This document shows positions 27,705 to 29,097 of a stretch of DNA of 42,792 nt, one piece after another. Under the pieces are notes generated by a model. That model searched no databases, was not told the origin of the DNA, and saw only the letters and a program-made list of their open reading frames with translations. The DNA is from Dehalococcoidia bacterium (GTDB lineage: Bacteria > Chloroflexota > Dehalococcoidia > Lucifugimonadales > Lucifugimonadaceae): contig JAPYUK010000014.1 of the NCBI GenBank assembly GCA_029936155.1, positions 1 to 42,792 of the forward strand, read 5' to 3'. Numbering within the stretch: position 1 is the first letter of the stretch; each line of letters opens with the position of its first letter. Both the position numbers and the translations under genes were made by a program.

Positions 27705-28559
27705 ATGATTGTCGATACCCACGTTCATATCTGGGAGATGCCTCCGATCGCGCCGATCGGGCCGAGCGCACTCAACTTCACATCGAAGCCGTCGGCCCAT
27801 GGAAATGCGGAGCTTCAGTTGGCCGATATGGACGCCAATGGCGTCGACAAGACCGTGCTTGTGCAGACGTCGTTTTCGACGTGGAATAACGAGTATGTTG
27901 CCGAAGCCGCGATTCGATACCCGGATCGCTTCGTTTCGATGGGATTAGTAGATCCTATGGACGACGACAACGAGACCGAAGCGGTGCGATGGATGGACGA
28001 ACGCCAGATGCAGGGTTTCCGCTTTCATCCGCAGTACTACGACTATGTCGACATCCTAAAGCGCCCCGAAAACGACGCAATGTTCAGGCAGATCGAAAAG
28101 CGTGAAGGCATTGTCCAGATTCACAATCGACCCGAGCACGCCCACCAGCTTGACTACGTTGCGGCCAGGTACCCGGGAATCATTTGGCTGATCGATCACA
28201 TGATGTATGCCGAGCCGAATATGGGTCCAAGTTGGGATGTCTACAAGCCAGTTCTGGATTTGGCTAACCACCAAAACGTGTTGATGAAGATTTCGGACAT
28301 TCACAACCGATCTGAAAGCGACCAACACCCGTTCGCCGACATGCACGATGTGATCAAGATGGCTATCGATTCGTTCGGTATCGACCGTGTCATGTGGGGC
28401 ACTGGTTACCCCGGTTACCATCGGGTCGAACACGGTTGGCTCTCGCTCGCTGACGAACTGAAATTAGTCAACGAAGGCTTCGACTGGCTGAGGGAAGATG
28501 AACGTGCGAAGTACCTCGGTGAGAACGCAATGCGCATAGGGAACTGGGATAGCGAGTAG
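27705..28559 (+). CDS. TIM-barrel metal-dependent hydrolase, amidohydrolase_2 family
   Basis: A 284-residue COG2159/COG3618-like hydrolase. The N-terminal metal motif is DTHVHIW (residues 4-10), with further family landmarks GFRFHPQYYD, VQIHNRPEHAHQ, LIDHMM and the C-terminal DRVMWGTGYP, where many relatives have GSD(W/Y)P; here the aspartate of that motif is replaced by threonine-glycine. Members hydrolyse lactones or decarboxylate ring acids. The gene is 67 bases before the selenocysteine peroxiredoxin on the same strand, so the two may share a transcript. Substrate unknown. Confidence 0.85.
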   Translation: MIVDTHVHIWEMPPIAPIGPSALNFTSKPSAHGNAELQLADMDANGVDKTVLVQTSFSTWNNEYVAEAAIRYPDRFVSMGLVDPMDDDNETEAVRWMDERQMQGFRFHPQYYDYVDILKRPENDAMFRQIEKREGIVQIHNRPEHAHQLDYVAARYPGIIWLIDHMMYAEPNMGPSWDVYKPVLDLANHQNVLMKISDIHNRSESDQHPFADMHDVIKMAIDSFGIDRVMWGTGYPGYHRVEHGWLSLADELKLVNEGFDWLREDERAKYLGENAMRIGNWDSE

Positions 28560-28626
28560 TATTGCGGCGCACGAATTACGCAGGATTAGAACGCACCCGA
28601 AAATGCACACGGAGCAGTAACGACAT

Positions 28627-29097
28627 ATGGCACTTCAACCTGGCACACAGGCACCTGATTTCACTCTGAACTCATCGCTTGGCACAATCACCCTATCCTC
28701 GCTTCGAGGCAAGACGGTCGTGATCGGGTTTCATCCGGCCAGCTTCACCGGTGGGTGAACTAACCAGGTGCGCGGGTTCCGCGCACATTACGAGAAGTTC
28801 GAGGCACTGAACACCGAGATTATCGAGATCAGCTGTGATCCAACTCCTGTGCAAAGGGCGTGGGTTGCAAGTCTGGACGAGGATGGAGGTGCGGGCGAAG
28901 TTCAGTTCCACGTTGCCAGCGATTTCTGGCCGCATGGCGAGGTGACGAAGGCGTTTGACGTGTTCAATGAAGATCACGGAAATGCCAAACGCTCGGTGTT
29001 CATTATTGATGGTGAAGGCATGATCCGCTGGTCAAATGTCTACACCGACTCGATCCCAGCATCAGGCGAGTTGCTGCACGAAATCGAGAAGTTGTGA
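28627..29097 (+). CDS. Selenocysteine-containing peroxiredoxin (in-frame UGA recoded as Sec)
   Basis: The frame from ATG 28627 runs 156 residues if the TGA at 28756-28758 is read through as residue 44. The part before it (APDFTLNSSLGTITLSSLRG, then VVIGFHPASFTGG) and the part after it (TNQVRGFRAHYEKFEAL...) are the two halves of one AhpE/Bcp-like peroxiredoxin. The TGA stands exactly at the peroxidatic cysteine of the PxxxTxxC motif: P37-A-S-F-T41-G-G-U44. The conserved active-site arginine (R122 in AKRSVFIIDGEG) is present. A SECIS-like hairpin follows. A plain ORF call would begin at GTG 28768 and lose the active site. The enzyme would reduce peroxides; C70 might act as resolving residue. 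A pseudogene or sequencing error is the alternative, judged unlikely because of the hairpin. Confidence 0.87.
28756..28786 (+). promoter_or_regulatory. UGA codon with bacterial SECIS-like hairpin
   Basis: After the UGA (28756-28758), GTGCGCG (28768-28774) pairs perfectly with CGCGCAC (28780-28786) around the loop GGTTC. Sixteen bases separate the UGA from a loop that begins GGU, as in the E. coli fdhF SECIS bound by SelB. The hairpin lies inside the coding sequence, which is normal for bacteria. Confidence 0.8.

Follow-up and report, generated by a model that had tools for sequence, protein, structure and literature searches.

A candidate selenocysteine-containing, AhpE-like peroxiredoxin in SAR202-type Chloroflexota

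Known selenocysteine peroxiredoxins and the locus under study

The peroxiredoxin PrxU carries selenocysteine (Sec, U) at its catalytic position. Sec peroxiredoxins as a kind are already known, including as a marine selenoprotein family: the pfam00578 type with a TxxU motif, represented by 253 sequences, is described as one of the major selenoprotein families of the Global Ocean Sampling data (PMC2398784), and a 2026 review (PMC13188914) has a PF00578 peroxiredoxin with TxxU in a list that precedes its heading 'Predicted with high confidence'. The term Chloroflexi has a count of 0 in PMC2398784 and PMC9402790, as do Chloroflexi, Chloroflexota and SAR202 in PMC13188914. For one sponge, PMC5649159 reports SelA and SelB from most of the symbiont bins, which belong to various phyla; SAR202 is among the bins but is not named in that connection. 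Among the open-access titles matching SAR202, Dehalococcoidia or marine Chloroflexi together with selenium, selenocysteine or selenoprotein, none concerned a selenoperoxiredoxin of SAR202.

The window, the whole stretch of 42 792 nucleotides of Dehalococcoidia DNA analysed here, contains a peroxiredoxin frame on the forward strand (28627–29097), which runs for 156 residues from an ATG to a terminal TGA (29095–29097) and is interrupted by one internal TGA at 28756–28758. Its translation is MALQPGTQAPDFTL...HPASFTGG*TNQVRG...EIEKL*, in which the asterisk within the chain marks the sole internal stop. With U placed at that stop, residues 5–135 match PF00578 (AhpC-TSA) at 109.3 bits (E 1.6e-31; cut-off 26), and the Redoxin domain is matched as well. 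Codon 44 lies three residues past T41 in the PxxxTxxU motif (P37-A-S-F-T41-G-G-U44), and in the alignment it shares a column with the peroxidatic Cys of the Cys-type homologues. P37, T41, position 44 and R122 are all in place, and the last three do not vary across an alignment of 22 sequences. The original prediction, that a UGA-split frame represents two halves of one peroxiredoxin with the UGA on the peroxidatic residue and the remaining active site intact, is borne out by this translation, the PF00578 match, the invariant T41 and R122 and the 49 family homologues described below. A GGAG at 28611–28614 (forward strand), 12 nt upstream of the ATG, may serve as the ribosome-binding site; the same four bases occupy the equivalent place in 16 of 17 genes of the genus and GGAT in the remaining one. 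The 3′ part of the gene is also a separate ORF starting at GTG (28768–29097), and a table-11 ORF listing shows just this 109-aa fragment. When the window's intergenic DNA was crudely scanned for further frames joined across a TGA, only short ones came up.

Among solved structures, both sequence and fold are matched best by AhpE of Mycobacterium tuberculosis (Rv2238c; PDB 1xvw and 4x0x), a 1-Cys peroxiredoxin with approximately 33% identity that shares the FTGxC/U motif and SDFWPHG with the window protein. An AhpE-like fold is predicted by the AlphaFold model (mean pLDDT 93.9), AhpE being the best Foldseek match (TM 0.90–0.91). With AhpE as the closest solved relative and no conserved resolving Cys, the protein is AhpE-like (1-Cys type); it differs from AhpE by the predicted Sec where AhpE has its peroxidatic Cys, and many homologues from the host's family lack Cys altogether. 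PrxU, modelled as a thioredoxin-dependent peroxiredoxin by NCBIfam NF040737, has the peroxiredoxin fold in common with the window protein, which however reaches 70.3 bits where the curated cut-off is 270 and is 156 residues long compared to the 233 positions of the model. The marine TxxU family is similar in its PF00578 fold, in Sec at the peroxidatic position, in a bacterial SECIS-like hairpin and in its marine setting, but here the host lineage is identified, as SAR202-type Chloroflexota, and FTGGU is found in nearly all members from the host's family. Among 15 homologous loci in named genomes, 12 are from Chloroflexi/Dehalococcoidia/SAR202 and none from Clostridia, so a Clostridia-type host was rejected. 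The other three loci, from Desulfomonile and two Opitutae/Opitutales MAGs, encode Cys proteins with 34–41% identity.

Conservation of the TGA codon and the downstream hairpin

We surveyed 76 genomes of the host's family, its own included, for TGA-interrupted homologues at E below 1e-20. Such homologues were present in 49 genomes. The host's genus, with 19 genomes, accounts for 17 of these (own genome included); its other two, G044 and G048, had no close TGA-type homologue, their best matches being Cys-type paralogues. A PrxQ-like Sec protein (L143) was left out of all counts of 49. Every one of the 49 homologues has exactly one internal stop, which is always TGA and always lies three residues past the motif Thr (T-x-x-U), a regularity that excludes chance. 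The motif reads FTGGU in 48 and FTGRU in one.

The bacterial SECIS model quoted in PMC13188914 calls for a stem of 4–16 bp, a loop of 3–9 nt with a G within its first two positions, a distance of 16–37 nt from the UGA and a minimum free energy of −7.5 kcal/mol or lower. A SECIS-like hairpin at 28768–28786 (forward strand) satisfies these published constraints, with an 8-bp stem, a GUU loop, 17 nt from UGA to loop and −13.8 kcal/mol; no simple hairpin of the genus has a lower energy, and L037 has the same value. The 60 nt starting from the UGA gave a z-score of −1.85, with 5 of 200 dinucleotide shuffles equally stable. When synonymous-codon shuffles were used on 48 sequences (L142, which has Ns, was left out), the lowest mean folding z among the offsets tried was that of the segment starting at the UGA, at −2.28 in the 17 genus genes and −1.14 in the 31 others. 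The SECIS criteria, as coded, were passed by 29 of the 49 homologues, comprising 17/17 in the genus and 12/32 elsewhere, a count that does not include a chance level. Two of the genus passes are atypical, L043 passing via a larger alternative fold and L045 with a 5-nt loop.

Covariation was analysed at three depths. Within the genus alone (17 sequences), the 7-bp core is paired in 99.1% of cells and four pairs are invariant; one pair is changed on both sides, a level reached by 31 of 500 shuffles. Adding L055 and L124, two non-genus sequences chosen by eye for their common hairpin register, a choice that favours the structure, raised this to three pairs changed on both sides, which 0 or 1 of 500 shuffles equalled. 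Across all 49 sequences in the same register, 70.2% of cells are paired (0/500 shuffles; 27–63% for slid versions) and the covariation score was reached by 1/500 shuffles, while pairs changed on both sides (313/500) and pair types (421/500) were not above shuffles. Covariation support for the hairpin is thus moderate, and weak within the genus alone. Its energy and position give the hairpin good support within the window's genus, and the case is less clear outside.

Selenocysteine machinery and other readings of the codon

The window comes from a 2.07 Mb assembly of 84 contigs that is 89% complete (G000). Both selA (425 bits) and selB (322 bits) score over their cut-offs. Neither selC, sought with RF01852 and ARAGORN typing of the hit loci, nor selD, sought with a profile, was found in this 89%-complete assembly. 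Nine RF01852 matches were obtained and all but the one on C61 were typed: the best, on C81, is tRNA-Ser(gct) according to ARAGORN, and the seven further loci, also rejected as selC, are tRNAs for Ser, Leu, Phe, Glu and Arg. The best match to the selD model, on C18, was rejected at 93 bits against a cut-off of 125; the HypE and ThiL models score above the selD model on this ORF, neither of them over cut-off. By reading of their ORFs, the matches on C47 and C81 resemble ThiL and PurL, respectively, and were likewise rejected. A further match, on C71, scores 34 bits.

Across the family, selD is over cut-off in 56 of the 76 genomes and tRNA-Sec candidates above 60 bits are present in 46; all 13 such loci tested with ARAGORN, and in addition that of the single-contig genome G041, were typed as tRNA-SeC(tca). 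In the genus, selD is found in 17 of 19 genomes (absent from G000 and G046) and tRNA-Sec above 60 bits in 15 (the exceptions being G000, G044, G046 and G056). The Sec peroxiredoxin accompanies selD, occurring in 45 of 56 family genomes with selD and 4 of 20 without (Fisher p 2.7e-6, kinship ignored). Several side observations were made in the course of this survey. One in-frame TGA is also present in the family's own SelD, in 55 of 57 rows (loci L104–L123 included), and the other two rows are N-terminally truncated. tRNA-Sec lies at the very end of a contig in G037 (C3:2–95) and G052 (C17:5–98) and occurs twice within 1.8 kb in G038 (C329:735–828 and 2393–2486), placements that resemble a repeat or an assembly break point. 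In 14 genomes of genera g4 and g5 (G009–G022), mostly small and partly incomplete, there was no selD (E 1e-30), no tRNA-Sec (E 1e-9) and no close Sec peroxiredoxin homologue, nor was selB over cut-off in G009 or G021, the two tested; these genera have probably lost the selenocysteine trait.

The undetected selC and selD could mean that the Sec pathway of the host species is partly lost, leaving the TGA as a relic or read otherwise. In G041, selC lies approximately 0.6 kb behind a nuoG-like gene, and a nuoG match is near selC in nine of ten other selC loci tested. In G000, contig C22 breaks off inside nuoG (86% identical): the gene reaches base 1 of the contig after residue 639, on the side facing selC, and by the spacing in G041 the contig ends approximately 1.4 kb short of the expected gene. 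For selD the picture is less one-sided: its neighbour in G041, lysA, was likewise not found in G000, which fits either a gap or a regional loss, and G046 similarly lacks detectable selC and selD. The same lysA search gave at least 78% identity in five of six genus genomes (the source, G041, counted) and only a 30% match in G046. Against partial loss stand the retention of selA and selB, a window hairpin whose −13.8 kcal/mol equals the lowest value among the simple hairpins of the genus, and the presence of selD in nearly all genomes of the genus. An assembly gap is the simplest reading of the missing genes, and although selD may have been lost regionally, we consider a broken pathway improbable.

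The gene could also be a pseudogene, or the TGA a true terminator, leaving two fragments or a short N-terminal product; a plain TGA does interrupt the frame and the 3′ part has its own GTG-start ORF. Purifying selection is, however, similar on both sides of the TGA (mean pS/pN 0.650/0.131 before and 0.681/0.144 after, from 136 pairs of the 17 genus genes), a single conserved TGA stands in place of scattered decay, and the 43-residue product of termination would stop before the catalytic residue, which makes this explanation very improbable. A sequencing or assembly error masking TGC or TGT, and with it an ordinary Cys peroxiredoxin, might be suspected in a fragmented assembly, but can be practically discounted given that 48 homologues from other genomes, including the single-contig assemblies G041, G007 and G008, have TGA at the identical codon. 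Genome-wide reassignment of TGA to a sense codon such as Trp would account for a TGA within a conserved frame, yet it is scarcely credible when TGA ends 7 of 27 tallied ORFs in the window (the peroxiredoxin gene among them) and so acts as a stop elsewhere, Cys-type homologues have their peroxidatic residue at this site, and selA and selB are present.

Counting against the Sec reading are the unfound selC and selD, the 12/32 pass rate for the SECIS criteria outside the genus, the weak covariation within it, and a Cys version in a genome that has selB (L070, discussed below). In favour of selenocysteine as the peroxidatic residue are conservation of the TGA, similar purifying selection on both sides of it, the SECIS-like hairpin, and selA and selB in the genome. 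We conclude that this is very probably a real selenoprotein gene.

Distribution, genomic setting and proposed catalysis

Homologues at E 1e-20 or better were found in 42 of 400 genomes drawn from the phylum. Among 28 additional aligned phylum loci, the site is TGA in 20 and Cys in eight. Motifs unlike FTGGU (FTNTU, WTPVU and so on) occur in 18 of the 20 TGA-type homologues, and the two with FTGGU are both from another family of the order. Over 40 of the 42 genomes (all but G000 and G059), selB was over cut-off in 20 of 21 TGA-type genomes and 14 of 19 others, so that selB by itself is no predictor of the residue. Cys stands at the U column in these eight phylum loci, and also in L070 (SAR202-II-3), where a Cys version with the motif FTGGC lies directly behind gcvPB. 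In an 88-row tree, which contained no mycobacterial AhpE, L070 falls on a long branch beside two of the family's Sec proteins (83/87), a placement that makes a Sec-to-Cys change plausible. All family members and L070 group together weakly in the same tree (83/60). The suggestion of a lineage-specific FTGGU branch therefore stands in part: 48 of 49 family members carry the motif and 18 of 20 outsiders differ, but the motif is shared with two proteins of another family and the grouping in the tree is weak.

Other peroxiredoxins were noted in these genomes. A second TGA-containing, Prx-like type with the motif (F/Y/W)W-U-x-x-C is present in relatives (L144 in G006, L145 in G008, L146 in G004, and L148–L151), with two copies close together in G006, G008 and G004. 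A third, PrxQ-like by eye, has the motif DFTRGU and occurs in genus g11 (L143 in G069, L152 in G071 and L153 in G070). G000 itself encodes an ordinary Cys peroxiredoxin with the motif FSGVC (L159; C22:27332–27760), approximately 27 kb away from the end of C22 beyond which selC is expected.

The window gene is flanked upstream by an Amidohydro_2 (PF04909) hydrolase (27705–28559, forward strand) and downstream by an HpcH/HpaI aldolase (PF03328; 29179–30087, reverse strand), both assigned by domain match and present in 11 and eight, respectively, of the 11 close loci L059–L069. A KDPG aldolase and a pfkB kinase are found in all 11 of these loci, gcvH in 10 and gcvPB in nine, some loci being cut short. 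This neighbourhood of glycine-cleavage genes, amidohydrolase, peroxiredoxin and sugar-acid aldolases is conserved in the lineage and offers no functional clue to selenium. The position beside a TIM-barrel hydrolase, remarked on in the original prediction, is thus part of this conserved arrangement, for which a link to selenium is not demonstrated.

Cysteine is entirely missing from 26 of the 47 complete homologues (L128 and L142 are incomplete), or from 28 when all 49 are taken as read. The commonest Cys, which follows the U at a distance of 26 residues and is C70 in the window protein, is present in 18 of the 47. A conserved internal resolving thiol is excluded by these cysteine-free members, and an external reductant would consequently be needed for recycling. 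A 1-Sec cycle with such a reductant is the best inference from the sequences. In the route we propose, Sec-tRNA made by SelA would be delivered with SelB and the SECIS hairpin immediately after the UGA, placing Sec at codon 44. The selenolate, positioned by Thr41 and Arg122 like the thiolate of other peroxiredoxins, would attack H2O2 or an organic hydroperoxide to give a selenenic acid, and a thioredoxin-like or low-molecular-weight thiol reductant would then recycle the enzyme. We hold with high confidence that the gene encodes an AhpE-like peroxiredoxin with Sec inserted at UGA 44 by the standard bacterial route. On a broader reading, towards which we lean by a slight margin, this AhpE-like subfamily may be locked into Sec (49/49) and often be a Cys-free, pure 1-Sec peroxidase served by an external, perhaps dedicated, reductant, with L070 representing a natural in-place Sec/Cys swap.

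What is modestly new is an AhpE-like group in which FTGGU is kept as Sec throughout, often in Cys-free proteins, together with one syntenic Cys counterpart. That counterpart is a natural comparison for why Sec is kept or lost, and the cysteine-free homologues should allow the role of Sec to be measured without interfering thiols. As a table-11 ORF listing shows only the 3′ fragment of this gene, it is easy to underestimate how far this uncultured marine lineage depends on selenium and how it defends itself against peroxide.
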